From NCBI GenBank assembly GCA_947034885.2, contig OX344749.2, positions 49,133,682 through 49,197,681 on the forward strand: a DNA stretch of 64,000 nucleotides, read 5' to 3'. The stretch comes from Thuidium tamariscinum (Eukaryota > Streptophyta > Bryopsida > Hypnales > Thuidiaceae). The translations under genes and the position numbers were made by a program. This document shows, piece by piece, positions 4,843-59,500 of this stretch (positions are counted from its first letter, which is position 1; every line of letters begins with the position of its first letter). Under the pieces are notes generated by a model, which did no database searches, was not told the DNA's origin, and saw nothing but the letters and a program-made list of their open reading frames with translations.

Positions 4843-5591
4843 TTAACCCCTAAAGTCCTGAGTTGTGTTTTTTGGCAACATAGAAATTTTGGGCAGCTCA
4901 CTACGAATGGAGTTTTTATTTTTTTTTCTTCGAAATTTTCACACAACATGTGTTCAAGGAGTAGCTTCAAGACCGAACAATTTTCGTAACTTTTGACTAC
5001 ACAGTTAAAAAGTTGTGGCATGATATGTCATTTTGTTTGAAGTGAGGGCAACCCGGGCAGCTGAAAAAACTTCTTTAAAAAAACTTTTTTTTGAAAAGTG
5101 AAATTTCAAATTGATTCTTTAGGTTTTTACAGACTTCAGAAGATTTGTTTCATCCCATTTGGATTAAGGAGTCAAAAGTTATGAGGAATTTTAGTTTGCG
5201 GGTAAGTATGGAGTTTTTGAAAACCATACCTACCCACAAACTAAAATTCCTCATAACTTTTGACTCCTAAATCCAAATGGGATGATTCAAAGCTTCCTAA
5301 GTCTGTAAAAACCTAAAAAATCAATTTGAAATTTCACTTTTCAAAAAAAAGTTTTTTTAAGGAAGTTTTTTCAGCTGCCTGGGCTGCCCTCACTTCAAAC
5401 AAAATGACATATCATGCCATAACTTTTTAACCGTGTAGTCAAAAGTTACAAAAATTGTTTGGCCTTGAAGCTACTCCTCGAATACATGTTGTGTGAAAAT
5501 TTCAAAGAAAAAAAATAAAAACTCCATTCATAGTGAGCTGCCTGAAATTTCTATGTTGCCAAAAAAAGCAGCTCAGGGCTTTAGGGGTTAA
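4843..5591. mobile_element. TTAA-A fold-back element (741 bp between TTAA sites)
   Basis: TTAA at 4843-4846 and 5588-5591 enclose two arms, 4847-5211 and 5224-5587, that are reverse complements at roughly nine positions in ten, separated by only 12 nt. Outer ends read CCCCTAAAG inward on both sides. The arm sequence equals the right end of longer TTAA-A copies (for example 19270-19635), so this copy looks like an inverted duplication of one end. A transcript would fold into a hairpin of about 365 bp, a likely small-RNA source. There is no transposase; the 60-65-codon frames here are incidental. Confidence 0.8.
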
Positions 5592-8500: not shown

Positions 8501-8915
8501 AATTTGTATGGACCCTATTTGTAAAGGCTAAGGTATCAATAAAACTTTCAACTAAATGATGTTTTTACATAGCCTAATTTATATATAATAGGATATGTAG
8601 TATTTCAAGGACCCCATAGTAGCTTTACATATTATATAAATTTTTCCCCTTTGAATTAAATAAAGCCTATCTTTTCTCTCATGTATTTTTCTAAAAATTA
8701 AGAGTAATCATTCTAAGCATGGCTATTAAATATATTTTTCATACTACCTCTATTACCTACTAATGTTGTAGAGTTATTTTTGTTTTGTTTTTAATTTTTA
8801 GAGTGTATTCATAACAAGTTTGACAATGAGATTTAGAGACCTCGATCATTGAAGAGGCTATCAACTATTGCATGGCCAAGCCATTTTTTTAAAAACTGTG
8901 AGGGCATGTTAGGCA
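5592..8915. other. No gene seen; AT-rich intergenic DNA
   Basis: Over 3 kb with no recognisable gene or repeat boundary. It includes one 27-bp tandem duplication listed separately. Reading frames here are short and have no recognisable motifs. Confidence 0.5.
6606..6659. repeat. 27-bp tandem duplication
   Basis: The phrase 'ttgatgaaagatattcgttt' followed by 'aggca' occurs twice head to tail with only one difference near the start. A recent local duplication; it lies in a short open frame with no recognised product. Confidence 0.7.
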
Positions 8916-8917
8916 AG

Positions 8918-11305: not shown

Positions 11306-11308
11306 GAG

Positions 11309-11499: not shown

Positions 11500-11502
11500 G
11501 AG

Positions 11503-12916: not shown

Positions 12917-13330
12917 TAATAAGTTACATAACCCTGGATGCCTTTAACCCTCCCACCAACTTTATATTATTATCCGAACAAACAAAAAATCTTCATATTA
13001 TTATTAGACCCTACATACATGGGGGATGCCAATTGCCAAGTGCTGTGGTGACGGACAGAACTTCATTATTAGGTTAAGCTTATCTCATTTTCCAACCATG
13101 TGCAGACAAACCAGTTGCAAATTTCTATTCCAGGAGGTGTGCTGGAATGATATTTCCACCTTCTCAATGGAATTTGTCCATGTGTTTAAAAATAAAATTT
13201 AAAAATAAAATTTCCACCTTCTATTTTGATTTCCATCAAAAATAGCGGGGTGCACTGCATCTGATGGCTTTGACCTATGAATCGCATGCTACAGGAAATG
13301 CAGGAGTTTGTGGATTCTAATAAATGCACA

Positions 13331-13606
13331 AGGTGGGTACATCCAAAAGTGCCACAAATTGGTACAATGCCTAGTTACTGTTATTATTTAGTTGTTCAGG
13401 TTTTCATATTGTCTTGTTGGCAAGTGAAAACCTGTTCCAGTGCACCGAAGAACACAACATTCGGATACAATATGCACAAGTTATTAAGGGTCAAAGCTTG
13501 TTTATGAAAGTGCCGTCTATAGTTTGTGTACATAACTGATTTTGGAAATGTACACAAACTATGGATGGTGCTTTGAGGGTAGTTGCGCTTTTGGGTGTAC
13601 CCACCT
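13331..13606. mobile_element. TA-H MITE, copy 2 (inverted relative to copy 1)
   Basis: AGGTGGGTACATCCAAAAG at the left and its inverse (CTTTTGGGTGTACCCACCT) at the right end. The right flank is TA (13607-13608); the left flank is CA (13329-13330), read as a decayed TA. The body matches copies 1, 3 and 4 in reverse orientation. It directly abuts a TTAA-C element whose TTAA overlaps its right flank. Confidence 0.85.
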
Positions 13607-13609
13607 TAA

Positions 13610-14183
13610 TCCTAGAGCGTCTCGAATCATGTCCATAATTGACAATTTGGAAAAAATCAGTATAAAGTACTATTTGGAAGAATATTTTGGAATTGTAATA
13701 CAATTAAAAGTTGTCAATTTTGAATTTTAGATTCCATCCGTACGGTTAGATTCTCCAATGCTTTCACCAATATTTTCTATAAATTCTGAAAGAAAAATTT
13801 CAAAATTCCTTCAAAATTCAATTACAAGCAAAATATTACTGTATCATTTTTCAAGTAAAACTTGTTGGAGTGGGTTTGAAATGAGCTTCTCTTCACATGG
13901 TGATTTTTTGAAATTTTTTTGTTCTTTAATTCTTTGACCTCATTTTTGCAAATTTGGTTTTGAACTACAGTCAACGCAAGTCAACCACTTGACGTACTTC
14001 CACATTTGTAATTTAAAAAAAATTATGTACTTTAGAAATACCAAATCCAACCCTTGGATAGAACAAAAACTTCATAAAGAATTTCTCAAAATTAGGATGA
14101 CTTCCATCTCAGCAATAACGAGACAGAAAAATAATTTTGAATCTGTTCAATGCTTAGAAATTGGACGTTGACGCACTTCAGGG
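13610..14183 (+). mobile_element. TTAA-C element, copy 1
   Basis: Bounded by TTAA at 13606-13609 and 14184-14187. The left end TCCTAGAGCGTC and right end GACGCACTTCAGGG are imperfect inverted repeats (consensus CCCTRAAG-CGTC). The whole 574 bp aligns with 26318-26883. In both places it is followed at once by a TTAA-B element, sharing the TTAA. Confidence 0.65.
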
Positions 14184-14187
14184 TTAA

Positions 14188-14460
14188 ATAGCCCCTAGCA
14201 GAAAATTTCCCTTCCATTGTACTTGTACACAATATGCCCTTGAATGTCAAGGGTGTACATTTTGTCTCTAATGAATGATAAAAAAATCTTTCCTTGTAGG
14301 AAAGAAGTGCAACTATTCATCCTCAGTACTAGGGGTGGAAAGGGGACATTTTCTACAAAACTTGGACTTCCAATGAGTATATTTGGCTGATTCAAAGTAG
14401 ACAATGTCACATGGTATCAAAATGCATGATTTGGACGGCCATTAGTCCTTCTTTCAAGGG
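14188..14460 (+). mobile_element. TTAA-B element, copy 1
   Basis: Bounded by TTAA at 14184-14187 and 14461-14464. The right end is TTCAAGGG; the left end is decayed. The interior words 'gcaactattcatcctcagta', 'gacttccaatgagtatattt' and 'tatcaaaatgcatgattt' are shared with copies at 21326-21547, 26888-27116 and 39340-39517, which places it in one family of about 220-270 bp. Confidence 0.65.
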
Positions 14461-14464
14461 TTAA

Positions 14465-14987
<523 letters not shown>

Positions 14988-15339
14988 ACTACAATGACCG
15001 TTGATGATGCTATTTATTTTAGGCATCATTATGCTCTTTAGATGTACGACCAATCAAACAAAATTAATATATAACATGAGCATGTTAACATCAAATGACA
15101 ATTGACACTTGAGCTTCTTTATGTGCATATTGTTCAAACTATTCCCCATTATTCTTTTGTGGTAAGAGAAATTTGATCGTAATCACAATTGAAATCATCT
15201 TTTGGATAGGGTATGAATCATCTACTTATGTCATTTTCATTGATCTCAACACAACCCATCACCTAAAAAAATCTTTGAAAACCAATTTTAAAAAAATTAA
15301 AATTATTTTCTTACATTTATATAGATGCAAAAAGTTTTG

Positions 15340-15820
15340 AATCATTTCGTTTTGATTAATGAGATGAAAGCTATGATGGGTTTTAGTTTTCGGACAATTA
15401 TAGAATCTCTATTTGTGAACAAACTTTGAAGCCTTGTATTTAACTCAATTTTCAATTTAAAAAAAAAATCAAAGAATGTAGATTTTTATTACAATGTTAC
15501 AACCATAATTACAATTGGCATTTTTCAATCCTATAACTTAATTCTTAACAATTTAGTATTTTGAATGATTGTCAATTTTTGTTTTTATGAAAAGTAATTC
15601 TTTTAATTTGCCTAAGCTACCCAAGTTCAGAAATAAACAATATATCATGCAATAATTTTTTAACCATGAAGTCAAAAGTTACGAAAATTATTGGACTTTA
15701 AAAATATTCATTGTTCATACCTTTTATTAAAGTTTGATTCCAAAACATAAAAATATCTAGTCACATATACTTGTCCCAAATTTTTATGTTGCTAGAAAAG
15801 GCAATTTGGTCCTTTAGAGG
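15340..15820 (+). mobile_element. TTAA-A, right-end copy
   Basis: Matches the right half of TTAA-A ('ttttaaccatgaagtcaaaag', 'tatgttgc..aaaaggca', 'ggtcctttagagg') and ends at TTAA 15821-15824. The next bases are CCCTAAC, so another element may start at the same TTAA. The left limit is unclear; 14827, after TTAACCCT, is a possibility. Confidence 0.5.
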
Positions 15821-15824
15821 TTAA

Positions 15825-18110: not shown

Positions 18111-18407
18111 TGTAGTTCTTCAATATTTGTACTAATACTTGTTTTGTCGAGCTTTGTATTTAGTTTTTTGTAAGTCCAATTTGGGACAATGAAGTTTTAA
18201 TCTTAAGACTCGGATTTGTTGTAGAATTCTTGTGATTTTCCAAAATATGGCGAAGCTTCAACTTATAGAACAAATCCCAAGATAATAGTAGACATAAATT
18301 ACAATTAGAATCTCATTTAGTTTTGAAGAGTTGAGAAGAGAAACCAAGATAGTATGAGTTTTTTATACTGAAATTAGAATTCCATTGGCATTCAAAGCTT
18401 TAATTAA

Positions 18408-19635
18408 ACCCTAAAGGTATTAGAGGATTTTTGAGGCCATTAGAAGACTGCGGGTGTCCGGACTGTAGGAAAACAGTTTCTGTCGTGTGAATAGAAATCC
18501 AACGTGGTCGAGAGAGTGCCACGTCATTATTATTATTTTTTTTGAAAATTTTTTGGACTTTTTTTTTCATATTTCTGGTCCCCAATTTTTTTTTTTTTGA
18601 AATTTTTTTGGGTAAATGCTGGCCTAATAGCGGCCAGCAATTACTGGAACAGTTTTGGGGAACAGCCCCGAAACGGCCCTTTGGAGGCCTCAAATCCCCT
18701 CTAATGGTTTTTGACTATGTTTTCACCAAAACCGCTCCTAAACTATCATTTCTAGGACAACTACCAAATTTTTGGAAAAAAACATTTTTGGAATAATGTG
18801 ACGGTAAAAACTTTTAGTGCACTAGTTTAACAACATGAGAAAAAATTTCTGAAATTTTCATCATGTAGATTGCAAGATATTAGTGTTAGAAGTTACAAAA
18901 ATCCTTTTTTTACCATTGTGGAAATCCGGGCAGTTGTATTTCAAAAGGTCACAATTGTATGAAAAAATGTCCAAAATGATTGTTACTCTTTAGATTCATT
19001 CTTTAGTTCAAGTTCGCTACATGCTTTAAAATTTTCAAATCATTTGAAATTGTACAACATATACGAAAAAAATAGTAAGTAGAAAGTAGAGAATGATTCA
19101 AAATACTAAATTGTTAACAACTTACTTATTAAATTCAAAATTGCCAATAGCAATGGTTGTAATGTTGTAATAAACAATCTACACACAATATTTTTATTTT
19201 TTTGCAAAAATATTAAAAATTGAATTAAATAAAGGACTTCAAAGTTTATTTTAGAGTAGACATTCCATAACTTTCTACAAATTACCCACAAACTAAAACT
19301 CATAACTTTCATCTTATTAATTCAAATGGCATGATTCAAAGCATTCCATGTCTATATAAATCTGAAGAACAAGTTTTGAATTTTTATTTCAAGAAAAGTG
19401 ATTTTAAGAGAAGTTTTTTAAGCTGTCCAGGCTGCCTGCTAAATAGAAAAAATCACATATCATGCAATAACTTTTTAACCATGTAGTCAAAAGTTGTGAA
19501 AGTTGTTGGAACTTAAAGCTACTCCTTGGGCGGATGTTTGGAAAAAATTTCAAAGAAAAAAAAGAAAAACTCCATCCATAGTGAGTTGCCTAAAGTTGCT
19601 ATGTTGTCAAAAAATGCAGTTTGGTCCTTTAGGGG
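18408..19635 (+). mobile_element. TTAA-A long copy (about 1.23 kb)
   Basis: TTAA at 18404-18407 and 19636-19639; ends ACCCTAAAGG and GGTCCTTTAGGGG. Three modules: a TTAA-D-like segment (18408-18714) with a local hairpin around 'ggccagcaatt'; the common TTAA-A left body starting 'ttttgactatgttttcacc' (18709); and the right end that forms both arms of the fold-back at 4847-5587. The interior is shared with 25574-26240, 23930-24690, 32505-33033 and (inverted) 33460-33972. It has no intact coding sequence. Confidence 0.7.
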
Positions 19636-19697
19636 TTAAAACTACTCTAAGTTGTGCTTTTAGTTCCCAAAAGTTTTAGAAGAATACCACCCTAGTA

Positions 19698-21321: not shown

Positions 21322-21325
21322 TTAA

Positions 21326-21547
21326 CCCTTAAACGTCAAGGGAAACTTTTTGCGTCTAATGAATGACGAAGAATCTTCCCTTGTAGGACAGAAGTGCAAC
21401 TATTCATTCTGACTATGAGGAGTAAAAAGGAGAGATCTTCTACAGTACTTTGACTTCCAATGAGTATATTTGGCTTATTCAAAGTAGATGATGTCAAATG
21501 GTATCAAAATGCATGATTTCCACAGCCACCAATCCACCATTCAAGGG
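21326..21547 (+). mobile_element. TTAA-B element, copy 3 (222 bp)
   Basis: TTAA at 21322-21325 and 21548-21551; left end CCCTTAAACGTC, right end CCATTCAAGGG. The interior matches 26888-27116 throughout. Confidence 0.7.
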
Positions 21548-21551
21548 TTAA

Positions 21552-23231: not shown

Positions 23232-24690
23232 CCCTAAGGAACGTCGTGCCATTCTTTGGTCTTTGGTAGGTTTTACAGGGACAAGAAGACCTCAATAGTA
23301 GTTCTTTCATTCACTTTTTTTTTTAATGACCTTTCATGTTGAGTTGTAAAGAGTCTTCAATTGAGTTTTTAGTCTAACTAATGTTTGTTTTCATGCAGTT
23401 GAGAAGTAATTAGAGAAAACGGATGGCAAAATTTGCCATTTTAGTGTACTTAAGAAATTGACTAAATCTGAAATTTCTCCTTGAAAATGACATTTTTTGA
23501 CAACTAATGAAATGAAGGTCCTCTGCTCTAGTTTCTACTCCAATTGAAATTTTGTAAAAATTTATAAAAATGAATATTTTATTGCATTTTGAACTTTGGC
23601 TGCATTTTTAATGTCCATAGCATCTTATTTGTAGAAATACATTGAAATTAAGTTTTCACCATGATGTTTATCATTATAACTATAATGTATACACATAGTG
23701 AAATTTTCAGATTTTTTGAGATAATTTTCTATTTGATATGATTTTTTCTTCATTTTTTCTTCAAAATTTTTCAGGAAAATCAATTTTATTAGAAAAAAAT
23801 CTAAGTTTTTTGTGAAGTATAGAAGACATGTACTTTCATCTCTGAAATTTCTTTAAAAAAAATTTCAGACATATTTGCTTTCAAAATGGTAACAAACTCA
23901 GTGACAAGCAAGGAGGCTTCAAACCAATGGTAATAGGTCCGTCCTCTAAGGTTCAACCTCTAAAGGTTTTTGACTACATTTTCTCCATGAATGTTCCAAA
24001 ACTACAATTTGTGATACAAGTACAATTTTTTTTCTTAAAACATTTTTTGACCCATATAACTCTAGGATCTTGTAGTACCCAGATTTTTAAAGATGAAGGA
24101 AAATTTTCAAAAATTTCCACCATGTACATAGCAAGATATCGATATTTTAGTTGGCAAGATCATTTTTGGGGTCCCTGCTAAAACTCAGGCACCTACACTT
24201 CACAAGGTTGTATTTATATGAAAAAATGTTCAAAATGGTTGTTACTTTATTTTGAAAAACAATCTTCACCTAATGTTTTAATTTTGTTTTCAAAAATATT
24301 AAAAATTGAATAAAATAAAGGTTTTCAAACTTTTTTGTAGAATAGAGATTCTATAACTACTTGCAAACTACCCCAAACTAAAACTCCTCATAACTTTTCT
24401 CTTATTGATCAAAATGGAATGATTCAAAGCTTTCTACATAGATGTAAATTTATTAAATCAATTTTAAATTTTTATTTATTGAAATATAAACTATAAAGAG
24501 GGTTTTTTTGGTTGCCTAGGTTGCTCGCCAAGCAATGAAAACTAAATATTATGCCATAACTTTTTTATTATGTACTCAAAAGTTATGAAAATTGTTGAAC
24601 CTTAAAGCTACAGCCTAGAAAAATGTTCTCTGAAAATTTCAAAGAAAAAATAAAAACCTTCATTCGTAATGAATTGCTTAAAATCATAAT
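23232..24690 (+). mobile_element. TTAA element with repeat E and TTAA-A modules, right end lost
   Basis: The left boundary is TTAA (23228-23231) plus CCCCTAAGG. 23232-23900 is repeat E (inverse copies near 1870-2335 and 33120-33450). From about 23930 it continues into the TTAA-A body ('ggtttttgactacattttctcc'). The homology fades near 24690 without a GGGGTTAA end, so the right end is deleted or decayed. No intact coding sequence. Confidence 0.5.
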
Positions 24691-25569: not shown

Positions 25570-25573
25570 TTAA

Positions 25574-26240
25574 CCCCTAAAGTTCTTTGACTATGTTTTC
25601 ACCAAAACCCCTCCAAAACTGCCATTTCTAACACAAGTACCAAATATTCAGAAAATATTGTTTTGGGGCACATATAACTATAGGATCTTGTAGTATTCAG
25701 GTTTGAGAAGACAAGGAAAAAATTTCAGAAATTTTCACCGTGTGGATTACAAGATATTAGTGTTTGAAGTTACAAAAATCATTTTTTTATCACTGCAAAA
25801 ATCCGGGCAGCTGCACTTTACAAGCTCACATTTGCATGAAAAAGAGTCCAAATTTGTAGTGCTTCTTTGGATTCATTCTCCAAGGCAAGTTGGTTACATG
25901 CTCAAAAAATTTCAAATCATTTGGAATTGGACAACATATAGAAAAAAAATAGTAAGTAAAAAGAAGTAGAGAATGATTCAAAATACTAAATTGTTAAAAT
26001 TTATTTCTGAAATTGAAACTTGCCAATCCCAATGGTTCAAATGTTGTAATAATCAACCTACACCCAATGTTTTTATTTTTTTCCAAAAATATTGAAAATT
26101 GAGTAAAATAAAGGACTTTAAAGATATTCCTCGTCCACACCTTCTATTAAAATTTGGTCCCAAAATATGGAAATCTCTAGTCACACGTATGTGCCCGAAA
26201 TAATTATGTTGCCAAAAAAGGCATGTTGGTCCTTTAGGGG
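25574..26240 (+). mobile_element. TTAA-A element, complete copy (667 bp)
   Basis: Intact TTAA on both sides (25570-25573 and 26241-26244), with ends CCCCTAAAGTTC and GGTCCTTTAGGGG, so CCCCTAAAG is the shared inverted terminus. The interior corresponds to the longer copy at 18408-19635 with an internal deletion after 'aaaataaaggacttta'. The best example of the family's boundaries. Confidence 0.8.
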
Positions 26241-26317
26241 TTAATCTTCAATATTGTTTGCAACTTTTTTAATACAATATACTGTTAGTCGCACAATTAC
26301 AAGTTACACCCTAAGCA

Positions 26318-26883
26318 TCTGGAATCATTTCCAGAATTGACAATTTGAGAAAAATCATTATAAAGTACCATTTGGAAGAATATTTTAGAATTGTGATACA
26401 AACAAAAGTTGTAGATTTGGAGTTTTAGACTCCCTTTGTGTGGTTCGATTCCCCAATGCTTTCACCAATATTTTTCTATAAATTTTCAAAGAAAATTTTG
26501 TAATTCCTTTGAAATTCAATTACAAGCAAATATTGTTATTTTTTTAGTAAAATTTCTTCGAATGGGTTTTAAATGAGGTTATCTTGATATGGTGATTTTT
26601 TTGAATTTTTGCATTCTTGAAATCTATGACCTCATTTTTACAAATCTCATTTTGAACTAGAGTCAACGCAAGTCAAACACTTGACATACTTCCATATTTG
26701 TAATTTTAGAAAATTATGAACTCTAGCAACACCAAATCCAACTCTTAGATAGGACAACTTCATACAAAATCTCTAAAAATTAGGATGACTTTCATCCAAG
26801 CAGTATCCAGTAAGAACTGAAAAGCAACTCTCAACTCTCAATGTGTTCATCATCCAGAAATTGAACGTAGGAGCACTTCAAGG
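26318..26883 (+). mobile_element. TTAA-C element, copy 2
   Basis: Aligns end to end with 13610-14183. Left end CCCTAAGCATCTGG (the flank TTACA is a decayed TTAA), right end GAGCACTTCAAGG, followed by TTAA 26884-26887 shared with the next TTAA-B copy. Confidence 0.65.
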
Positions 26884-26887
26884 TTAA

Positions 26888-27116
26888 CCCTTGAACAATG
26901 CCATGGACGTTTGCTGAATGACAAAGAATGTTTCCTTCCAAGACAGAAATGCAACTTTTCATCCTCGGTATTGGGGTGGAAAGGGAAGATCTTCTACAAT
27001 ACTTTGACTTCCAATGCATATGTTTGACTTTTTCAAAGTAGGTGATGTCACATAGTATCAAAATGCATGGTATCAAAATGCATGGTTTCCACGGCCACCG
27101 GTCCGTCCTTCAAGGG
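26888..27116 (+). mobile_element. TTAA-B element, copy 4 (229 bp)
   Basis: TTAA at 26884-26887 and 27117-27120; ends CCCTTGAACAATG and GTCCTTCAAGGG. The best preserved TTAA-B termini (CCCTTGAA). It also carries a short internal tandem duplication, 'tatcaaaatgcatgg' twice (27055-27085). Confidence 0.75.
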
Positions 27117-27120
27117 TTAA

Positions 27121-30731: not shown

Positions 30732-30788
30732 GCAAGGCTCTACATTATTCTTCTTCTATTTTTGCTTTCATGAACGTTACTTTTCACA

Positions 30789-31682
30789 ATGATCACAATC
30801 AAATTCACGGACCTCTATACTAAAGGCAAGCAATTGGAGGCGGGTGCTTTCGGAGTGACATATTTGTGCACCCAAATTAGAACCAACAAATGTTATGCAT
30901 GCAAATGCCTATCAAAGAAAAACCTTGTCTCACTAAAACAACACGAAATGGTGACACGTGAAATTGACATCTTAAGGTTGATCAATCTTAATGAACACCC
31001 AAATATAGTGGCCCTCAAAGATGTTTTGGAAGACGATGATTATGTATACATAGTAATGGAGCTATGTGAAGGAGGCTCAATCTTCGATTATATGCTTTAA
31101 AATGGTATTTTTGATGAGCCAAGCGCCGCTCAAATAATCAAAGAAATTGCTAGTGCTATTAAAGCTTGCCATAGCTTTGGCATAGTGCATAGGGACTTGA
31201 AGCTTGAAAACTTGTTATTCCAAACCAAAGGCAAAGGTTCACACGTCAAAATGATTGATTTTGGATTGGCCCGATTTTTTGAGTTTGGCGAAATATTGAA
31301 TGATGTGGTTGGGACTCCACCATATACGGCTCCCGAAGTCATAAGAGGCATTCATGGACCCAAAGCCGACATTTGGAGCCTTGGAGTGGTACTCTATGCT
31401 CTCTTAACGGCACATGCTCCTTTTGGTGGTTACACATTTGCAAATGTGTATGAAGAAATTGCGAAGGACGAAGATTTGTTTGTGGAGAATCAATGGCCAC
31501 ACATCTCGAAGGGTGCCAAAGATCTCATTCAAAAAATGTTGAGACGCAATGTTAACAAACGTTTGAGTCCATCAAGGGTTTTGCATCATCCTTGGATTCT
31601 AGAAATGTCAAGTAGGTTAAAAGAAACTAAGTTAAGGCAAAGTGGGTGGAATCCCTTTAATTCTAAGACAATAATAGTTTAA
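30789..31682 (+). pseudogene. Intronless Ser/Thr kinase, CDPK/PPCK-like catalytic domain, one nonsense codon
   Basis: A complete kinase domain (297 codons including the internal stop) most like plant CDPK catalytic domains ('FGVTYLCT', 'YACK', 'VMELC'), with no EF-hands. In length it resembles PEP-carboxylase kinases. Visible: Lys39 of YACK, Glu58 in helix C, HRD at 134-136, DFG at 157-159, APE at 181-183. The Gly loop is altered (EAGAFG; the first Gly is Glu). Codon 104 (31098-31100) is TAA where relatives have a coding residue between lobes, probably from CAA; the frame is otherwise open to the TAA at 31680-31682. An in-frame TGA at 30771-30773 fixes the start. No introns, plus a good TATA box and AATAAA at 31810: either a retrocopy that gained a promoter or a recently killed single-exon gene. 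Confidence 0.8.
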
Positions 31683-32495: not shown

Positions 32496-32504
32496 GTTTT
32501 AAAT

Positions 32505-33033
32505 GTCCAAAATGGTCGATTGTCTTTAGATTGATTCTTCAAGGTAAGTTGGCTACGTGCTTGAAAATTTTCAAATCATTTGAAATTGTACAATATATAG
32601 GGAAAAAAAAATAAGTAGAAAGAAGTAGAGAATGATTCAAAATACTAAATTTTTAGGAATTTATTTATGGAATTGAAAAATGTCAATCCCAATGGTTGAA
32701 ATGTTGAACTAAAAAAAATCTACACTCAATTTTTTATCTCATCAATCAAAATGAAATGATTCAAAGCTACCTATATATATGAAAATCTAGAAAACCAATT
32801 CCATATTTTTTATTTCTTCAAAAAGTGAGTTTTTAAATCTACTTGGGCTGCCCGAGCTAGAAAAATAACTACATACTATACAAAACTTTTTTACTATTTA
32901 GTCAAAAAATATGAAAATTGTTATTTCTTGAAGCGAATCTTGGACCACATACTATGTGAAAACTTCAAAGAACAAAAACGGAAATTTCACTTGTGGTGAG
33001 CTCCCCAAAAAATATGTCTTGAGGCTTTAGGGG
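32505..33033 (+). mobile_element. TTAA-A, right-end copy
   Basis: From 'aaaatggtcgattg' onward it follows TTAA-A through 'agtagagaatgattcaaaat' to the end GGCTTTAGGGG, followed by TCAA (33034-33037), a one-base decay of TTAA. Confidence 0.5.
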
Positions 33034-33119
33034 TCAATTCTCAAAGGATGTAACCACAATTACAAGCCTCATTGCCCATCACTTAGTTTGCTTCTAGTTC
33101 CAAACTAGATATGTTTGAA

Positions 33120-33972
33120 AAGATTTATATTCATTTTTTAAAGATGAGGTTATATGCCTTCTTTAATTCACAAAGTTTTCAGATTTTCGTGAGGAAAATT
33201 GACTTTTATGAGAATTTTTGAAAAAAAAGTGAAAAAAAATCATATCAAATAGAAAACTATTTCAAATAATTTGAAAATTTCACCATACATGCATATTACA
33301 TTACACTAGAAAATACCATGGAGTGAACTTAATATTTGTGCCATTCTATAATTAGAATGTAAATAGACATTGAAAATACATCCAAAGCTCAAATTCCAAT
33401 AAAATATTCAATATTACAATTTTTTTCAAAATCCAAATATGAACTTTGAAGTCCTTTATTTTATTCAATATTTTTTGAAAAAATTAAAAATATTGGGTGT
33501 AGATTGTTTATTACAACATTTGATCCATTAGGATTTGCAAGTGTCAATTTCACAACAAATTCTTAACAATTTTGTATTTTAAATCATTCTTTACTTCTTT
33601 TTACTTACTATTTTTTCCTATATGTTGTACAATTCCAAATGAATTGCAAATTTTCAAGTATATAGAAAATGAATCTAAAAAAGCTCTACCATTTTGGACT
33701 TTTTTCATACAAATGTGAGCTTGTAAAGTGCAGTTGCCTACTTTTATGCAGGGCCAAAAAAAGAATTTTGGTCAATTCAAATGCTCAAATCTTGTAATCC
33801 ATATGGTAGAAATTTCTAAAATCTTTTCCTCATCTTCTCAAACCAGCACACTACAAGATCCTATGGTTACATGGGTCTAAAAATAATATTTTTCAAATAT
33901 TTGGTACATAGGTTAGAAATGGCAATATTGGAAGTTCTTTTTGGTAAAAACATAGTCAAAGAACTCTAGGGG
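33120..33972 (-). mobile_element. TTAA-A plus repeat E, inverted copy
   Basis: Read on the minus strand it begins (TTGA)CCCCTAGAGTTCTTTGAC and follows the TTAA-A left body ('catagtcaaagaac' at 33952-33965 is its inverse), then repeat E (33120-33450). With 32505-33033 it makes two TTAA-A-related pieces facing each other about 90 bp apart. Confidence 0.5.
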
Positions 33973-34397
33973 TCAAATAGAGGTACCTATTTTTGATAAC
34001 ATAAGCATTTTCACCTATGGGATATGGGAAATTCATTGAGAAATTGAGCTCAATGTATACAACATAAGAATGCAAAAGAATGCAAAAAAGAAAAGAATTT
34101 GTTTCCCAAGAATGAATATTTTATTCAACTTAAATGTAATTTTTTCATTCATACTCATTTTGATGTCATATAAGGTTGAGGCACCAAATGTCGATCACGC
34201 TTAGTAGCCAATCTGCAAGGGGCCCTATTTCCAATCAAGTCCAGAACATATTTCCAAACACACCTTGAATTGCATATTTTGGTCCTTTTTGAAGCCAAGA
34301 CTAATAAGGTAATGACACATGTCTAAATTAGTGAGAGGAAGAAGTGAATGGAAAGCAGTTAAAGCATTATCGGAATTAGGAGACTCTAGACATTGGC

Positions 34398-36225: not shown

Positions 36226-36231
36226 TGTCAA

Positions 36232-36953
36232 GGGTGAATGCAAGAAACACTTGTACTATTTTCCGTCACAAGCTAAGTGCTGATCTGTTTTTTGGCCATG
36301 ACTTTTGCATTTTTTCTCGAAATGACTCAAGATTTCTAGAGAAGGTACTCATGTCTATCATACACCTTATATAATTTTTTCATAATTTTCAAAAATAGTT
36401 TAATACTAAAATAGTACTAGTGATTAAATGTCACAAATGAGAATTTGGAGGTTTTTAGTACTAAGGAGTACCTTTTTTTAATGATTTTGAAATGAAATTT
36501 GGATGAGATGGTCTTCTAGTACATTTACATCTCTCCACGTGAGGGATTTTGAAAAAAGTTATTTTTGTGTGGTGTAGAAGTCTACAAAGTGAGCTTCTTT
36601 CTGCTTGAATTTTGAAACATATAAAATATTATTTTGGTGTTTTTTTTGGTGAATGACCATCTCCATAGAATTGTTACAAATGGCCACTTTTTATTTTTTG
36701 AATTTAATTATTTTTACTATTTTTCCCAAATTAAAATATGAAAGTATGTATTTTCTTGAGGTTTGGCACTTTTTAAATTCTCCTACTTAGAGAATTTTTC
36801 TATCAATTTCCTTTGGTGAAAACCTTCATCTTAGAGGTCTATACATTGTTCATATTTTTCAAATTAATTTTCTAATTTTAAAGTACTCCAGAAAAAGTCA
36901 TGAGCATTGTAGTAAAACGCAACAAATAGTATAGGTGTTTCTTGCATTCACCC
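36232..36953. mobile_element. 720-bp MITE family G, copy 1 (722 bp)
   Basis: TIRs GGGTGAATGCAAGAAACAC at the left and the inverse (GTGTTTCTTGCATTCACCC, with one mismatch) at the right. TCAA stands outside both ends (36228-36231 and 36954-36957), a possible 4-bp duplication. Aligned over its whole length with 41942-42664. The superfamily is unresolved. Confidence 0.75.
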
Positions 36954-37369
36954 TCAATTCACCTGGACCCAAAATAGCTACTTATATAAAGGCAAGTTGT
37001 GGAAGTTGTAGTGTGCTTGTTCATAATTTGTTGGTTGTTTACTTGTCACCATGATTGCATTGTGCTAAGTAGGGAGGAGGCCACAACAAAGAACAATAAT
37101 TTGCATGGCATAGGCTTTTTTTAGTATAGTCTTTTCTTTTGCAGAGCCTTTAAAGATCCTAAGTACAATGCCAACCGCATCGACCTATGGCAATAAATTG
37201 TTGGCAAACTTGATTAAAGCCACACCAAAGATGCTCTAAGTTAGGACCTCCTACAATGTGTGCCAAGTGGGCAAAGTTTCTAGAAGAAGCTATAGCATCA
37301 AGCAAGAATTTGCACTAACATGTAGACCTAATAGGTGGAAAGAGATCAAATAAAAAAATTCCACATGTA

Positions 37370-41935: not shown

Positions 41936-41941
41936 ATCTAA

Positions 41942-42664
41942 GGGTGATTGCAAGAAACACTTGTCCTATTTTGTGTCACATGTTGCATGCTGATCTGTTT
42001 TTTGGCCATGACTTTTGTGTTTTGGTTCCGATTGACTCAAGATTTGTAGGGAAGGTACTCATAACTATCATAAACCTTATGTAATTTTTTAATAATTTTC
42101 AAAAATATTTTACTATTCAAAAATAGACCCCAATTGGATGTCATACATGGCAGTTTAGGGTTTTTTAGTACTGGGGAATACCTTTTTTTAATGATTTTAA
42201 CATGAAATTTGGATGAGATGGTCTTCTAGTAGACTTATAGTTCTCCAGGGAAGGATTTTTAAAAATAGTTAATTTTATATGGTGTGGAGGTCTACAAAGT
42301 GAGCTCCCTTCTGCTTGTATTTTGAAACATATAAAATATTATTTTGGTGTTTTTTTTGGTGAATGACCATCTCCATAAAGTTGTTGCAAATGGACACTTT
42401 TTATTTTTTGAAAATATCTAGTTTTACTATTTTTTCCTAATTAAAACATGAAAATATATATTTTCTAGAGGTTTGGCACTTTTCAAGTTCTCCTACTTAG
42501 AGAATTTTTCTATCCATTTCCTTCAGTGAAAACCTTCATCCTAGAGGTATATACATTACTCATATTTTTCAATAAAATTTTTAATTAATTTTCTAATTTT
42601 AAAGTACTCCTGAAAAAATCAGCCAAATCCAACAAATAGGACAGGTGTTTCTTGCAATCATCCC
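41942..42664. mobile_element. 720-bp MITE family G, copy 2 (about 723 bp)
   Basis: Left GGGTGATTGCAAGAAACAC, right GTGTTTCTTGCAATCATCCC. Collinear with 36232-36953, including 'gctgatctgttttttggcc' and 'ggtgaatgaccatctccat'. The flanking bases (CTAA and CAAG) are not a clean duplication. Confidence 0.75.
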
Positions 42665-43089
42665 CAAGTAGTATCAATACATATAGACCAGTTTGCCAAT
42701 TGACTATTAGAAAATAGGACCCAAATCAACAATATTCAATTGATTCATACATCTTAATTTAGTCATTTTTAATATAGTTATATTGATTCAAACATCTTAA
42801 TTTTTAAAATTCAAGCTATGTTTTCTAAGTGATTGCAACTTCTTCTATCATACAGATGATAAGGCATGACAATGCATTAAAAAAAGGATAGGAAATACAC
42901 CTCAAATTTGGACAAAGTGTTAGCCTCGAATGTTTTTAAATCTTGGCTTCTGTCCACATGTGCTAAAATAGTATATCTATCCAAATGATGACTTTCTATA
43001 GTCTACATGCTAAATTTTGACAAATTGTGGTTGGAAGTATGTTATGCAAAAAAACATGATGGTTGGGGCTTTTTAGGCACTATATGAAA

Positions 43090-46559: not shown

Positions 46560-47240
46560 AGTATATATATATATAAGTAGATATACTACCACTATAGAAG
46601 GTGATTATAACATAGACACCCATAATATAGGTATCTATAATATAAATACACTATAATTATAGAAGATTTTTTTAATAAAGACTCTTATACTATAAGTGTA
46701 TAGTCTTCTAGGCTCATAGGCTTACACTTCTAGGCTCACATAATAGCAACCCTTGTCATCCTATAATGAAAATGCTAAACCCCTTTTTTTCCAAAAAAAT
46801 AGGTCACTAAATCTTGGGCAAATGGGCCCTTGTTGGGAACATGTTGTACACCATGTGATGCATGGAATGAAACTGAACAAGACAGGCTACTGGTTCAGTT
46901 TGTTCCGGTAGTTGGATGTTTTTTTTCTTAAGTTTTGCAATGAAATTCTATTTCATTTGCCCCCCCCCCCAAAAAAAACCAAACAAAACCCAAAGAAATT
47001 GTTTTCTGCCGGGGCTATTGCCTTAGGTTCTCTGTACTTTTTCTTTGCAATGGAATTTGTCTATGTGTCTCCAAAAAAAACCAAACCACCCCCCAACCCC
47101 CAACTCCAAAACCCAACCAACCTAGAGCAAAACATAACTTAGACTCAATTTTTGGAGTGACTATAAGCTTTGTTCAATGCAAATGTACAAATACCGTGCA
47201 TGGTCCAACTTTTGAAACAAGCCTATTGTCACAGTCAATA
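46560..47240. other. Simple-sequence DNA, no gene recognised
   Basis: Short TA run at 46564-46575, a cluster of 'tataat/ctataatata' words to 46710, and a C10 A8 tract at 46961-46978. The reading frames over these tracts are incidental. Confidence 0.4.
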
Positions 47241-47514
47241 AGGTGGGTACACCCAAAATGGGCACCTGACCTTAAAGCGCCATCTACAATGTGCATACAT
47301 TTCCAAAATCAGTCATGTACCCAGGCTGTAGATGGCGCTTTCAGAAACAGACTTTGACCACTAATAACTTTAGCATACGGTATCCAAATCCTCTGTTCTT
47401 TGGTGGGTTGGAACATGCTTTCACTTGCCAACAAGACTGTATAAAAATCTGAACAGCATGATAACAGCACCTAGGCACAGTAAGAATAAGTGGCACTTTT
47501 AGGTGTATCCACCT
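47241..47514. mobile_element. TA-H MITE, copy 3 (274 bp)
   Basis: AGGTGGGTACACCCAAAATG at the left and CTTTTAGGTGTATCCACCT at the right, TA on both sides (47239-47240 and 47515-47516). The inner hairpin AAAGCGCCATCTACA / TGTAGATGGCGCTTT is intact. Together with copy 4 the best preserved of the family. Confidence 0.9.
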
Positions 47515-47729
47515 TAGTGCCCAATTACTCCAGGCTCCAAAAAAAAAGGTGCCTAGGTAATATACCTTGCAACACTTGTGCAAAAAAAAAGGGGTTCAGA
47601 AGCCTGGTTGTCCTCCTGACCTGGTTCAGTTTCAGAGTTAAATTAATTTTTTTTCCCTTTTTTTTTTAACTGCCTGTCAATGATTTTCCATAAACAAGGG
47701 TCCTTGAAAAGGCTGTTATATCACTCTAG

Positions 47730-50766: not shown

Positions 50767-53229
50767 ATGACTGCGGTCCTCCATTCCCAAAGAAACGCTC
50801 GAGATTTTTCCAGCGACAGTGACGAATACGACTCTCCTTTGCAGTATTTAACAGACTCGGACACAGAGGGATACAGTGGCAATCACGCATCACCTCTCGT
50901 TGAGGAAGATGTTGCTGGCTTGAAGGGTAGTCTGAAACTCTCAGGCAGCTCTTCTTCACCGAAATACAGGACGACGAAAGTGCAGGACGCGGGAGCGCAG
51001 TTGTCGATGGTAGCGCTGGTATTGGCCACAGTTAGAAAGTCGCTTCTTACTTGCCAGACAGTGGAAGAAGTGGAAATTATAGGAGAGAGGGCGAGAGCCA
51101 CAGAGAAATTCAAGGAGAAGGAGAAAGGAAAGGGGAAGGAAGTCAAGATGAGCATGGATATCGGATGGCCGACAGATGTTGAGCACGTCGCGCACGTTAC
51201 CTTCGACCGCTACAATGGATTTCTTGGCCTGCCCGAGGAATATGAGCACGAAGTTCCTAGGCCAACTCCTAGTGCAAGGTTTGTTTATATCGTCTTTCTG
51301 TCTCAGATCTATGTCTGTGTTTCTGTGACTTTTTATTTACTCTTAAAAACTCTTTTCGGTTTCTTTACAATGTTCAATCATCGAGGAAGAAGCTCAAAGT
51401 TTCAGATATGTACCTGGCCAGTCCATCCCTTTTCATGGTCGTTTTAGATATATTTCGCTCATTAGGTGTCATGCAAATTCAGGCATGTTGCTAATCGATG
51501 GAAGGTTTACCGATATATCGATTCCTAATTTACTGTGATGACAATGTGCTCATTACTCAACCTTCGGTATGTGCAGCAAGAATGTGTTTGGAGTCTCAGT
51601 GGAGTCAATGCAATGCTCCATGGATAGTCATGGCAACATGGTCCCGACTATCCTCCTGCTCCTGCAGAGGCAGCTCTACGACCAACAAGGGCTCAAGGTG
51701 TGTCCCATTTGAGAATATGGGCTCAAATTATCATCCACTTCTGCTATCTGCGGACATTGAAAGGATGTTTACATGGTGCCCAATGCGATGGGATCGATTC
51801 AGCATGTGTTACGTCACCTTGGCAGTATTTTCTTTCGCTTGCCTGTTAACATGATGTTAGAATGTCTAGGTCATGAAGCTGATCTAACTAGAAACTTTCT
51901 TGTCTCTTCAGGCTGAGGGTATTTTCAGGATAAATCCCGAAAATAGTCATGAGGAGCATGTGCGGGAGCAGCTCAACAGAGGGATTGTCCCTCCTGACAA
52001 TGACATTCACGCCTTAGCTGGCTTGATTAAGGTTAGTGACTCTCATTGCATGTCGTGTTCTTGTGTGCCTCAGGAATCTGGAACACAGTGGACTGATAAA
52101 TGCTTGGATTTCCTGCCTTGTCTATAGACGTAGCACGTGGATTTCAATAATATGGTTTATCCTGAGAACTTTCCCGTTCCCTTACGTGTCTTTCAGTGGA
52201 CTTAGAAGATGATGGGATTCTGAATGCAGGCATGGTTCAGGGAGCTCCCATCAGGTGTTCTAGATTCATTGAGCCCAGAGCAGGTTCTTGCTTGCCACGG
52301 TGAAAAGGACAGTTTGGCTCTTATCAAGCAGTTGCCGCAGACAGAGGCTTCTCTGTTAGACTGGGCCATCAACCTGATGGCTGACGTTGTGGAGTTGGAA
52401 TCCCTCAACAAGATGAATGCCCGCAATATTGCTATGGTGTTTGCTCCTAACATGACACAGGTATTGATTGCTTTTGCAATGATCATGTCTTCTTGAAATC
52501 ATTTAGGCAGGAAGGTCGATATTTTGGATTGTTGACCTTTTGCTCATCTAATTTTAAAGTTATTCCCCGGTTTATTGCCTGCAGATGGTTGATCCGCTGA
52601 CAGCCCTGATGCATGCTGTTCAAGTCATGAACTTGCTTAAGACTCTGATTCTTCGCACATTAAAGGACCGGAAGGCTTCTTTGCTGGAATCCCATTCACC
52701 CCCCTCATCACCAGAAGTTCCCGAGGCAGAGGAGCCTGAACATGACGCCCAAGCTGCTCTGTGGGTTGAGGATAACAATGATGATGCATATGGGAGCAGG
52801 ACGTTCAATCGCCATGATCGTCAATTTTCCCAAACCTCCCAAAACTCGTCTGTGGGTCTCCTCCGAGGTCTTGACCGGACCAGCTCACAAAACTCACAAA
52901 GTGGTGTTTGGATGGGACATGAACGAAGCAGCTCACGGTATCCTCCTCTGTCATTTATGGGTGCTCAAATTGAACGTCAACCCACTCCTGTGTTTGGTCA
53001 ACCTCAGAAGTCCAATCCTTTCCTCAGGAGCAGCACCGAAGATATCCATGATCGGAATAGCCCACAGAGCTCCTTACTCAGTGGTCAAGTGCGCGGTAGT
53101 GAGGAGTCACAAGGAGACTTTAGTCCCTTCATGCTCTTCCCCCCAACACACAGCATGAAAGGTAAGGGCGCCAGTGGTCGCATGACCCCTTCTATAGATC
53201 AACGAACTGAGCGGGTGGAAGCTTGGTGA
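50767..53229 (+). CDS. ROP GTPase-activating protein (CRIB plus RhoGAP)
   Basis: Switches off plant ROP/RAC GTPases by stimulating GTP hydrolysis, mainly at the plasma membrane and cortex, in polar growth. Coding exons: 50767-51278, 51577-51697, 51912-52031, 52230-52460, 52585-53229; all introns are GT-AG (298, 214, 198, 124 bp) and join into 542 codons. An acidic Ser-rich N-terminus (about 1-60) precedes the CRIB motif at about 131-156 (DIGWPTDVEHVAHVTF), which binds ROP. RhoGAP spans about 172-350: arginine finger Arg217 in GIFR, and the conserved Asn325 in VFAPN. The tail (about 375-542) is Ser/Gln/Pro-rich and probably disordered; the protein is longer than typical 430-470-residue homologues. 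An in-frame TGA at 50740-50742 and the absence of other in-frame ATGs fix the start. The only clearly intact gene here. Confidence 0.93.
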
Positions 53230-54912: not shown

Positions 54913-54917
54913 TTTAA

Positions 54918-55899
54918 TCCCTAAATGCATAGGGCCATTTTGGGTTACAAAAATCATTGTTTTTGAAGTTTTATAAGTTTAAATGTTACTAAGGTACATA
55001 AATTTCAACAATACATTCTCATAGTGTATGTGTTTCTAGATGATGTGAATCTAATTTAGAGTGATTTGGTCACATAGATTGTAAGATTATAAATGTTTTT
55101 GTGTGGCAAAAGGATGTTGAAATTTTTCTAAGAAAATATTTGGAGGTGAAATTTGATTTCTAAACTTCTTTGAATGAAAAAGAAATTGAAACTATAAAGT
55201 ACTTCAAATTTAGTGTACAAGTACATTGGTGAAAATAAATACTTTGTACCATTCAAATGACTTGTATTTACTAAATGGCTTTCAAATGTCAAAAGATAGT
55301 GAAAAAAATGGCGAAAATTACATGTATGGTTGAACTTTGTGTATGGCTAAAATGTTTCTCCAACACTTGTAACTTTTGGGATCAATATTAAAATTGAATT
55401 ACAAGTTAGATTGGTATGTGCAACTTTTTTAATTTTTAAAAATTGAACATGGACATTGTATAAAGAAAAAACAAGTTGCCAAAGTTCACTATTATTCAAA
55501 AATGTTTGAAATTTGAACTTTGGATTACTTAGAAACCTTCAAAACAACTTGGATTGACATACAAAATTTACATCAATAATTAGAATTTTAAGGGAACAAA
55601 AACCCAACTAATTTGATTGAAAATGAATGTTGGATGAATGAAATACAAGCCTTTGAAGTTGCAACCATCGAAATGCAATTTGTTGAATTCAAATTGAACT
55701 TAAGAACTTTGAATGGCTTTTAAGAAATCAATACATCTTGGATTGATTTGAAAATTTTACAACATAGATTAGATGAGACAATGTAGATTTCTCAACAAGT
55801 TTTATAATATTCAAACGTTGAATGTAAAAGTTACAATACTTTAAATTGGACTTCCAAACTATGTAGAGATACTTTTGGTCCCATGGGGGTGCTTAGGGG
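54918..55899. mobile_element. TTAA-F element (982 bp)
   Basis: TTAA at 54914-54917 and 55900-55903. The left end TCCCTAAATGCATAGGG and the right end (inward) CCCCTAAGCACCCCCATGGG share CCCTAA and a following GC-rich block. The interior is AT-rich with no coding sequence and differs from TTAA-A/B/C. An isolated terminus identical to its left end occurs inverted at 3093-3107. Confidence 0.65.
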
Positions 55900-55903
55900 T
55901 TAA

Positions 55904-56391
55904 CGTACTCCAATTCATAATAAAATTGGAGCTACTTTCTCTCTCTATATGAAGATACATAGTGTATGTGGGACTTGACAAATTGTCTATGCCCGTCAAA
56001 GTTGAAGGATTTTTGCATTTAAGGTATGAAAATGTATGTTTACAAGTACTTATATTCTATATAAGTACACTAAAGAGATAATTGTATATAATTGATTGTG
56101 CTTGCTTTTCAAGGTGGATGGTAGTGAAAGACATGTTTAGGATTCAATGTCATAATAATTTGAACCACTAAGGCTAGAATGTTCATATTAATTTCTAATT
56201 TTTTTCTAATGCAATCAATTATTTGGTGTGTTTTGGGAATGGTGTTTTATGCAAATAACTTTTCATACTTTAAAATAATGCTTAAATCTAAAAAAAAGCT
56301 TTCTTTATAAGATTGAGGTTAATAATACATTTGTGCAAAGGTATATTAAGAATACCATAAAAATTTCAAAAAAGGTTTTAGGTAGTAGTCC
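55904..56391. other. No gene seen
   Basis: AT-rich DNA between two TTAA elements, without recognised features. Confidence 0.4.
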
Positions 56392-56395
56392 TTAA

Positions 56396-56537
56396 CCGTG
56401 GACTATAGCCAAGGCCAAGGCCAAGGCACATCAAATTCCTACAAAACCTTGTTCCTACTACAATTTCAACATTCCCATAGTCTACAAACTTGTAGTCTCA
56501 TAGAGGCCTCAAATCTCTTCTAATGGGTATTTAGAGG
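56396..56537. mobile_element. TTAA-D element, short copy (142 bp)
   Basis: TTAA at 56392-56395 and 56538-56541; left CCGTGGACTATAG, right GGGTATTTAGAGG. 'ggcctcaaatctcttctaat' matches 18691-18710 and 46154-46174. It contains three 'aaggcc' units in tandem (56411-56428). Confidence 0.5.
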
Positions 56538-56541
56538 TTAA

Positions 56542-59500
56542 TGACATCTTCTAGCCACCTCTATGTATACCCAATTGATCATTCCATGTCAATTCTAGCT
56601 GTGATTTGACACAATGTAGTTTCACAAAACTTTCATCTAATGCCAATAAAATGAATCTTTTCCACATATAAAATTTGAAAATTCATAGTTTATCAAGTGT
56701 ACACAAAAATTTACATTCTAAAAACCAATAGCACAAAAAGATGGCCATAAAATGTCCCTCCTTTTCTCAAGACTTTAAAGTTCTATAGTTTATTCATATC
56801 TTGTTTAAAAAACGATTTTGGCAAGATTAAAAAAATAATTCTTATTCTAAATACACTCACATAAAGTGTCCTTTGTATCTAAATAACAGAAAACACAATT
56901 GCCTTGAAAATTGAAAATATGCAAACTATAATTGTTGAAAAGGAGCCTAGAAATTACACTTATAATATGCATGAGTACTCAATTGAGACATTTGTGGTAA
57001 ATTTGAAAGCATCCTTCACAAAAACATACAAACATATTGCCAAATGATAGGCAATATGTCTTGGGCCTTATCAATGGAGATGATCCATTGTTCCAAATTA
57101 CACTAAGATTGCAAAATTTGGTGAAATCTAGTTAATGCAAATGCCTTCAATAAGGTTCGTATATAAATTGTATACTCCACTTTCTTAGACTATTTTCAAC
57201 TATTGAATCATAGTATTGAATTTAAAACTATAAATGTCTTATAAGATGAAAAAACTAGGTTTAGAATTTTTGCATTTGTCCATATATATATATATATATA
57301 TATATATTCATTTTCACTATATTGGTGTTGATAAGAAAAAAAAATCTATTGTCACTACTTATGTGACCAAGTTTAACATGTGTAAGAAGTATGCAATTGA
57401 TTTGATGTATGCAACATCAATGCATTACATGTGTAGTGCCTTATATATTTGTTGTGTACCAACAAAGTTTGAATTCTATTACAAATTGATCCATCGTGTT
57501 GTAAAACCAATACTACAAGGAATTGCCACACAAATTAAATAGAAATAGCATGTGTAAAAATAATGAGGAACAACTTTTTTGTTTGTCTATGAAATAGAAC
57601 TCACTTGCATGATCTCATACATGCATCAATCTAGTGTTCCCTCTCCATATTGATTGAATACCTTGGTATTTTTCAAAATGTATTTGAAAGAAGTTGAAGA
57701 GAGAAAAAACATACTTCTTTGTTCATCATTAAATTGTTTGTCATAGCTTCCCTACTTCTTGCTAATTTAGCACAAATTCTCCTTTTTGTGTTCAATCTTC
57801 TCATTGGAGAGAAAACATGCATGTTTGGAATTCCTTCCTTTTCCCATTTTCTCCTAAGATAAGGTGAGTAGGTGAGTGTGAGGCAATTTTAGTACAATTT
57901 TAGGTGGATCGAGAAGTAGGTGTGCCATGACTACTACAATAGTGATATTTTTTTATTGAATTATGCAAATGGGAAGATTTTTAAGTTCATAGGAAGTACA
58001 TTTATTGATGTTGTTTCAATTAAGTTGAGGAATCTAATAGATTGCAAAGCTTAGCTTCTTCATTACTTTTGGAATTTCATTATATACCATAAATGTGGGC
58101 TACAAAATTTCACTAGGATTGTAGAGGAGAACAAATTTGGAGCTTTGACTCTTCTCTCTTTAGAAAATTTTTACTAGACTTAGGATCATATTGTAATTTT
58201 GAAAACTATAAAGGCTACAACCAATGTATAAAAGCAACAAATTGCAATTTGTTAGTGTACACAATCAAGACGTAGGCTTCACAATAAAAAATAAATGTCT
58301 ATGAAATTTGAATAGAATGTAGGCTTGTAGTTGGTGTAAGGCTTCTTTGCACCTCTATTCTTCCTTCTCTATCTACTTCACTGCTAATGTTCTCTAATTG
58401 ACAATCAACTACCACTACTTGTTGAGCATTGTCTATCCTAGTCTTCCATTACATGTACCCATTGTCTAGCTTATTTAATTCTATTGCGTGTTTTATGTAC
58501 CTTAGTTAGAAGTCAAGATTGGTTTCTTTGCCCCCTTTACCTACAAAAAAAAGGTTGATTCTCTAAAGATTGCAATAAATTTTGAATCATAAACTCAATT
58601 GTCTTAAGAGTCATGTTTATATATAATTTATAGAAAAATGTCTCCCTTCAAGAAATTTTTAAGAAATTGAGTAAAAAAAAAGTGAGAGTATAAGCTTACT
58701 TGAATTGTATTTGGCCTCCTAAGGGAACAACAATTCTTTAGGGGTTAAAAAATTCATTTCTATATCTGAATTTTCTATGTGCCCCTAATTTCAATAGTTG
58801 AAAGGTAACTCCTATTTTGAACTCCCTCAATCTCCAAATGACCTTTGAGTTCCCCTTAATTTTATCTTCCAAAATGATCTTTTGGTTGGATGTTGTAATT
58901 TGTGAATTTGTAAGATCTAGATTTTTTTTGTTACCTAGGACTAATAAACATCTCAAGTTAGTAGTTTCCTTTTTTTGTGCAATCATCAATTGAAAAACAA
59001 ATGAAATAATTGAAGTGATCAATCAACATTGTTGGATGAAAGCACGATGATAGGAGTCATACGTGAACCTTATTGGAGTGCTTATGGAGGTCTTTATTGA
59101 AATATTCTACCAAAAATTGTTGCTAATTCATCTAAAATGCTCTTTAATTCATCCAAAATAAGTCTTTAATTCATCCAATAAGGCAATGGTTACAACTACA
59201 TTTTTGTCCTTTTAGTATTTATAAAATTAATATAATTATTCCATTTTTGTATTATGTCAAATAGCCATAACTAAAAAACAACGCACTTGAATTTTTTTTC
59301 CATATTTTAAGTGACATTCAAATCTTTGAATGAAGATTCTTCAAGAAAAAAGAATGGTTACACTCAACTTAGCTCCTACTAGTGCCTTTTCACCCTATTC
59401 ACTGTTGTTTGAAGGAAAGAAGTCTTCGACATCTTTAGAAACTTAAACAAACATCCACACATAGTCTACACATTGAACGAATGACGACCTTACACTCAAC

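Follow-up and report, generated by a model that had tools for sequence, protein, structure and literature searches.

The piggyBac superfamily is old and known mainly from animals, where piggyBac is a workhorse of transgenesis. Its ends start with CCC, as do the ends of the moss elements described here. The three DDD residues of the piggyBac transposase have catalytic roles, and many members of the superfamily have a C-terminal Cys-rich domain that binds zinc. Tourist and Stowaway MITEs of plants are short, non-coding and high in copy number, with inverted ends and a 3-bp (TTA or TAA) or 2-bp (TA) duplication. In contrast, the moss MITEs have piggyBac-type ends and what we read as a 4-bp TTAA duplication.

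The closest described systems are piggyBac of Trichoplusia ni and piggyBat of Myotis lucifugus. T. ni piggyBac has a TTAA target and a Cys-rich domain, like the moss elements (PMC8086355), and piggyBat has the same target (PMC11707139). The moss transposases resemble the T. ni protein in the catalytic stretches, the DDD motifs and the Cys-rich tail, and solved structures match in two catalytic stretches, the best being piggyBat (9c0f, E 3.2e-27), followed by piggyBac (6x67, 1e-22). However, the moss host is a plant, and the five moss frames that we compared are 845-1,212 aa long (four of these lengths being counted mechanically from a TTG) versus 594 residues in the 6x67 chain. The moss transposases are likewise diverged from piggyBat in sequence, host and length. 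A paper on the ciliate Blepharisma, to judge from its title, places MITEs in a piggyBac context (PMC9942856), as is the case here; the present system differs in belonging to a land plant and in having several MITE families with open autonomous elements alongside.

A 2017 paper on Physcomitrella states that insect piggyBac had been used in rice and was still untried in that moss (PMC5505980). A fern repeat table labels piggyBac traces (1,230 entries, 122,417 bp; PMC6890710), and a grass repeat table contains one piggyBac element of 75 bp (PMC8319324). A Niphotrichum paper was rejected as a prior report, its matches being to the word "piggybacking". In the open-access literature on piggyBac and bryophytes, mosses or Sphagnum (including PMC10619864), as far as its text was accessible, native moss piggyBacs are undescribed; Repbase and most subscription papers lie outside this scope. 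Nor did the open literature that we searched yield a land plant with a large native piggyBac population that was recently active and accompanied by candidate MITEs in the thousands.

Here we analyze a stretch of 64,000 nt from the moss Thuidium tamariscinum (the window; contig C1, 49133682-49197681) together with the rest of its assembly. We conclude with high confidence that three MITE families, A, B and C, and probably a fourth, F, are non-autonomous piggyBac MITEs residing beside many full-length piggyBac elements in the moss nuclear genome. The superfamily is already known; what is notable is the host, the scale, the diversity and the signs of very recent movement.

Results

Inverted ends of the window elements

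The elements in the window and their additional relatives are:

4843..5591, no strand assigned: A1, A-family MITE, near-palindrome; TTAA on both sides, each arm derived from the right end of A
18404..19639, plus strand: A2, A-family MITE, 1,236 bp; TTAA on both sides, left end TTAAACCC
25570..26244, plus strand: A3, A-family MITE, 675 bp; TTAA on both sides
15260..15824 (15260-15584 and 15592-15824), no strand assigned: additional A-family relative; end at 15812-15824, TTAACCTCTAAAG, on the minus strand
23955..24684, no strand assigned: additional A-family relative; approximate boundaries
32501..33976 (32501-33005 and 33436-33976), no strand assigned: additional A-family relatives, fragmented
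21322..21551, plus strand: B1, B-family MITE, 230 bp; TTAA on both sides
26884..27120, plus strand: B2, B-family MITE, 237 bp; left TTAA common to the upstream C-like copy
14237..14464, plus strand: additional B-family copy; its right end, at 14464, reads TTAACCCTTGAA on the minus strand, and the left boundary is approximate
13606..14187, plus strand: C1, C-family MITE, 582 bp; TTAA on both sides
26305..26887 (approximate), plus strand: C-like copy, 79.6% identical to C1; right TTAA common to B2, left end degraded
54914..55903, plus strand: F1, F-family candidate, 990 bp; TTAA on both sides

The first-pass annotation of this DNA had described TTAA edges followed by CCC-type inverted ends, and these are present at both edges of 7 of 7 intervals (A1-A3, B1, B2, C1 and F1). 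Three left ends have imperfections: A2 (TTAAACCC), C1 (TTAATCC) and F1 (TTAATCCC). The 7-base motif TTAAYCC is not enriched, with 32 occurrences in the window versus 27.6 expected, a number reached in 23 of 100 shuffles. The enriched ends are 12-13 bases long: TTAACCCYTWAA with at most one mismatch occurs 23 times (4.1 expected), and TTAACCCCTAAAG with at most two mismatches occurs 21 times (2.8 expected), and 0 of 100 shuffles reached either count. Relatives of the listed elements make up 8,196 of the 64,000 bases (12.8%).

A1 is 749 bp long and 91.8% identical to its own reverse complement. Its two inverted A right ends between TTAAs suggest that two right ends may suffice for mobility. A3 is without about 245 bp carried by its relatives in the genome, which have a form of roughly 930 bp. 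The arrangement of C beside B occurs twice in the window, at C1 and at B2. Further piggyBac-like end motifs lie at 3097, 17327, 23227, 38363, 39732, 56530 and 58737. When five piggyBac transposases from the genome were compared with the window, the best match had an E-value of only 0.41.

The window also contains a separate repeat of ~280 bp, with copies 78-83% alike at 130-418, 13326-13608 (which stops where element C1 starts), 47239-47529 and 60021-60298, and a ~730-bp repeat pair that is 83% identical (36230-36957 and 41940-42667). Protein kinase frames at 30774-31682 and a frame with a P21-Rho-binding (CRIB) domain at about 50767-51447 are probably plant genes, the latter presumably a plant RopGAP. 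Scans of the whole window for tRNAs and Rfam families were empty, and one piece of the window compared with each of the plasmid and phage collections gave zero matches.

MITE relatives in the moss assembly

The genome searched was the window's own assembly, of 363,211,507 bp in 19 contigs. Eleven contigs, C1-C11, have the size of chromosomes (17.5-54.2 Mb). Contig C18 (103,123 bp) has tRNA genes at its start and frames that we take to be mitochondrial rps1 and atp8, and contig C19 (115,000 bp) has group II introns and frames that we assume to be plastid rps7 and ndhB. A 209-aa piece of plastid PsaB has as its top structure matches chains 7ksq, 6l35 and 8htu, from Physcomitrium photosystem I, by a narrow margin (482.8 bits versus 478-481 for the following chains); plastid PsbC was not discriminating, with 9i4t ranked first and 5xnl second. 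A mitochondrial genome of ~103 kb is usual in mosses.

First-look searches returned 8,397 candidates for A, 3,158 for B and 2,817 for C, which are unvalidated candidate counts and not copy numbers; 40 were scored in each family. In the A family, the 39 scored copies other than the window copy are 94-97% identical to A3. Junctions were read in the first 20 of these 39 after the window copy, with none skipped and with one end placed by reading the letters directly in four of them; 19 of 20 have TTAA at both edges, and the twentieth has CTAA in both places. Although a single case, this is the pattern expected if four bases were duplicated at a variant target.

In the B family, 20 of the 39 other scored copies were fetched whole. 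TTAA is present on the left in 20 of 20 and on the right in 20 of 20, with differing flanks, and the left-end count leans towards TTAA because three top matches starting at query positions 2, 3 and 6 were passed over. Pairwise identity among these 20 copies is 87-97%, with a median of 92.6%. TTAA is also on both sides in 10 of 10 C copies, taken from the 39 other scored copies with one (match 1-580) passed over. The TTAA fractions hold for well-preserved copies, since the copies examined were among the best scored. Among the fetched loci, F has only partial relatives with ill-defined ends.

Full-length elements with a piggyBac transposase

The PF13843 (DDE_Tnp_1_7) profile gave 659 first-look candidates in the moss genome and matched 0 of 14 control genomes. 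We scored 116 of the candidates, and all 116 are above the curated cut-off (best E 5.7e-80). The scored matches lie on each of contigs C1-C10 and include open frames of 408-1,214 aa; some are interrupted by stops. In viral and prokaryote collections, each examined by pattern scan and tblastn, no relatives were confirmed. On contig C8, two piggyBac transposases of equal score, at C8:23933884 and C8:23941055, lie in opposite orientation about 7 kb apart, which suggests that the sequence was duplicated locally in inverted form or that the pair stems from the assembly.

We fetched 20 stretches of 9.9 kb around transposases, and 11 of these hold a family that we call fam1, chosen as 10 matches with one common E-value in the PF13843 search and the neighboring eleventh. 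fam1 is 5,096 bp long, and its 11 copies differ from one another at 0-3 positions: eight are identical over the whole 5,096 bp, two others depart from these at one position each and the last at two, and 10 are 99.92-99.96% identical to the reference, L009. All 11 copies have TTAA at both edges with differing flanks. The inverted ends are TTAACCCTGAAACGCCGG and TTAACCCCTAAACGCCGG, and the transposase frame extends 1,009 aa from an ATG. We regard near-identity at dispersed sites as a sign of very recent movement.

Paired TTAA-CCC ends are also found in L021 (5,616 bp), L022 (5,615 bp), L023 and L024 (5,094 bp each), L025, L026, L027 (7,936 bp) and L028. End-to-end lengths are equal or nearly so within the pairs L023/L024 and L021/L022. 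Inverted ends starting with CCC after TTAA were recorded for 14 ends of 7 autonomous elements, those of fam1 being defined by copy boundaries and the others having been found by seeking such ends around the transposase.

The DDE_Tnp_1_7 domain was found in 5 of 5 transposases compared (Pfam E 1e-73 to 1e-80). Four of them are 26-43% identical to that of fam1 over the whole length and 34-53% identical in the catalytic region. All five share three Asp residues (D661, D766 and D882), which lie in VDES/CDE-, TD/CD/VD- and GVD-type contexts and align to the motifs of 9c0f and 6x67. Six Cys and one His are invariant in the C-terminal tail of all five, and from its sequence this tail is a Cys-rich domain with putative zinc-binding activity. 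The catalytic domain begins at residue 354-729, and in L010, L022, L023, L025 and L027 it is preceded by a long, poorly conserved stretch that is partly Gly/Arg- or Ser-rich. An AlphaFold model of the catalytic region from five sequences was poor (mean pLDDT 46.6) and was discarded.

Comparison of MITE ends with transposon ends

We compared positions 5-18 of the MITE ends (14 positions) with 13 of the 14 autonomous ends, the two ends of L021 being identical over 20 bases. Controls were the 1,037 other TTAA sites in the window, which still include ends of other family copies among the top scorers (for example, those at 14464 and 15824). The right end of B2 matches an end of L027 at 13 of 14 positions, and 0 of 1,037 controls reach 13. 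The remaining three B ends score 10 of 14, which 5 of 1,037 controls reach. The A ends (8-11 of 14), C ends (9-10) and F ends (9-10) resemble autonomous ends largely through the shared TTAACCC core, and the score of 8 for the A2 left end is equalled by 32 of 1,037 control sites. For A, C and F, none of the full-length elements examined carries the family's exact left and right ends. On these results, a candidate mobilizer can be named for B, and the other three families can be assigned no further than the superfamily. By similarity of ends, the best candidate mobilizer of B is an L027-type element.

Empty sites and nested insertions

To look for empty sites, the two flanks of a copy were joined with one TTAA and aligned to fetched DNA; the sites are paralogous, not orthologous. 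The 39 joined A and B queries gave 11 junction-spanning matches, and 6 were accepted, each with one 4-bp site. B83 interrupts another B copy, relatives of which mostly read TCAA at that position. A40 interrupts another A copy, and its empty site is TTAA in L028 and L014 and TTGA in some others. The empty site of B90 is TTAA (L011:9531 and L027:7015), that of B96 is TTAG (L041), that of A55 is TTAA (L010, 76.5% over 98 bases), and that of A57 is TTAG (L013 and L015). The spanning matches of A41, A42, A46 and A50 were rejected, each having aligned to its own flank, and that of B89 was rejected as AT-rich. Another 25 joined queries, from 18 autonomous copies and the 7 window elements, gave two spanning matches. 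One was accepted, for the fam1 copy in L009, where a local paralogue reads CTAA once; the other, for B1, was rejected as a neighboring tandem copy. Thus, the joined flanks of the 7 window elements gave zero valid empty sites in the fetched DNA, element C1 being without a spanning match.

Several elements are nested or tiled end to end. The left TTAA of B2 is the right TTAA of the C-like copy, and elsewhere two C copies in opposite orientation have four bases in common (C3:28287935-28287938). The fam1 copy in L011 sits inside the terminal TTAA of an A MITE, another fam1 copy interrupts locally duplicated sequence, and one B copy adjoins DNA that reads as an L023-type end.

Discussion

The assignment to piggyBac in the first-pass annotation stands for families A, B and C, and F is left as a candidate with partial relatives. 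Autonomous relatives, which were postulated there without having been seen, do exist: there are 116 scored DDE_Tnp_1_7 matches and several families with TTAACCC-type ends. Of the follow-up checks proposed there, that of genome-wide copies gave TTAA edges for A, B and C, as described above. Whether a transposase-bearing element shares the MITE ends was answered in part, for the right end of B2 and not for A, C or F. Duplication of TTAA relative to empty sites was likewise borne out in part, with a single 4-bp site at loci paralogous to the insertions of six MITEs (A or B) and of one autonomous element, and not for the seven window elements. In the copies and elements examined, none of the outcomes named beforehand as evidence against piggyBac was seen for A, B or C, whether variable flanks, empty sites without a single target copy or a relative from another superfamily with identical ends.

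We propose that full-length elements of about 5-8 kb make a piggyBac transposase with a DDD triad and a C-terminal Cys/His-rich domain. This transposase would recognize paired TTAA-CCC ends, both on the element that encodes it and on related ones, excise the element and join it to TTAA, duplicating 4 bp. MITEs that retain just the ends would have been moved in trans. Because every insertion would leave TTAA at both edges, the ends of resident elements should remain targets, and elements would tile. We infer this mechanism from the known piggyBac reaction combined with the ends, the duplication, the empty paralogues, the open frames and the near-identical copies, which together suggest that transposition may continue at present.

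Among plant MITEs, the Harbinger type is the common one with a TTA/TAA duplication, and the MITEs described here might be PIF/Harbinger (Tourist-like) elements with a 3-bp TTA or TAA duplication that merely lie in TTAA contexts. The A and B empty sites are compatible with a 3-bp TAA duplication and do not separate 3 bp from 4 bp, because TTAA is palindromic and a TAA duplication gives the same site. However, the CTAA at both edges of a single A copy is directly explained by a 4-bp duplication, the CCC after TTAA is also seen in this genome's piggyBac elements that carry a transposase, and the right end of B2 closely matches one of those elements. We therefore consider a Harbinger origin very improbable. 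The chance that the piggyBac transposases are contamination from an insect or fungus, or recent foreign DNA unrelated to the MITEs, is negligible in our view. The first eight transposase loci do have a GC content of 41-51%, versus 33% in the window, but matches occur on each of contigs C1-C10, and the nested fam1 copies and the B copy beside an L023-type end described above count against it as well.

It is also unlikely, although less so, that the MITEs and piggyBacs are relics, effectively extinct and without present movement. The moderate divergence of the MITEs (a median of 92.6% among the 20 B copies and 94-97% to A3 among A relatives) and the stops in part of the transposase matches would fit such a history. 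In contrast, the eight identical fam1 copies at different sites, with their open 1,009-aa frame, and the L023/L024 and L021/L022 pairs of equal or near-equal length argue against it. We think it probable, from sequence comparisons, that the moss has a native and presently transposing piggyBac system, with several deeply diverged autonomous lineages, at least one of them mobile now, driving thousands of MITEs.

If this is true, then piggyBac MITEs would account for a considerable part of some regions of the moss genome, as in the window, and TTAA-specific transposition would have an endogenous source in a plant. Native near-identical copies imply that plant cells support the piggyBac reaction in nature, and the moss elements offer plant-adapted transposases and ends. 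It can now be tested whether land-plant genomes have piggyBac as a component of their own or mosses acquired it by horizontal transfer.
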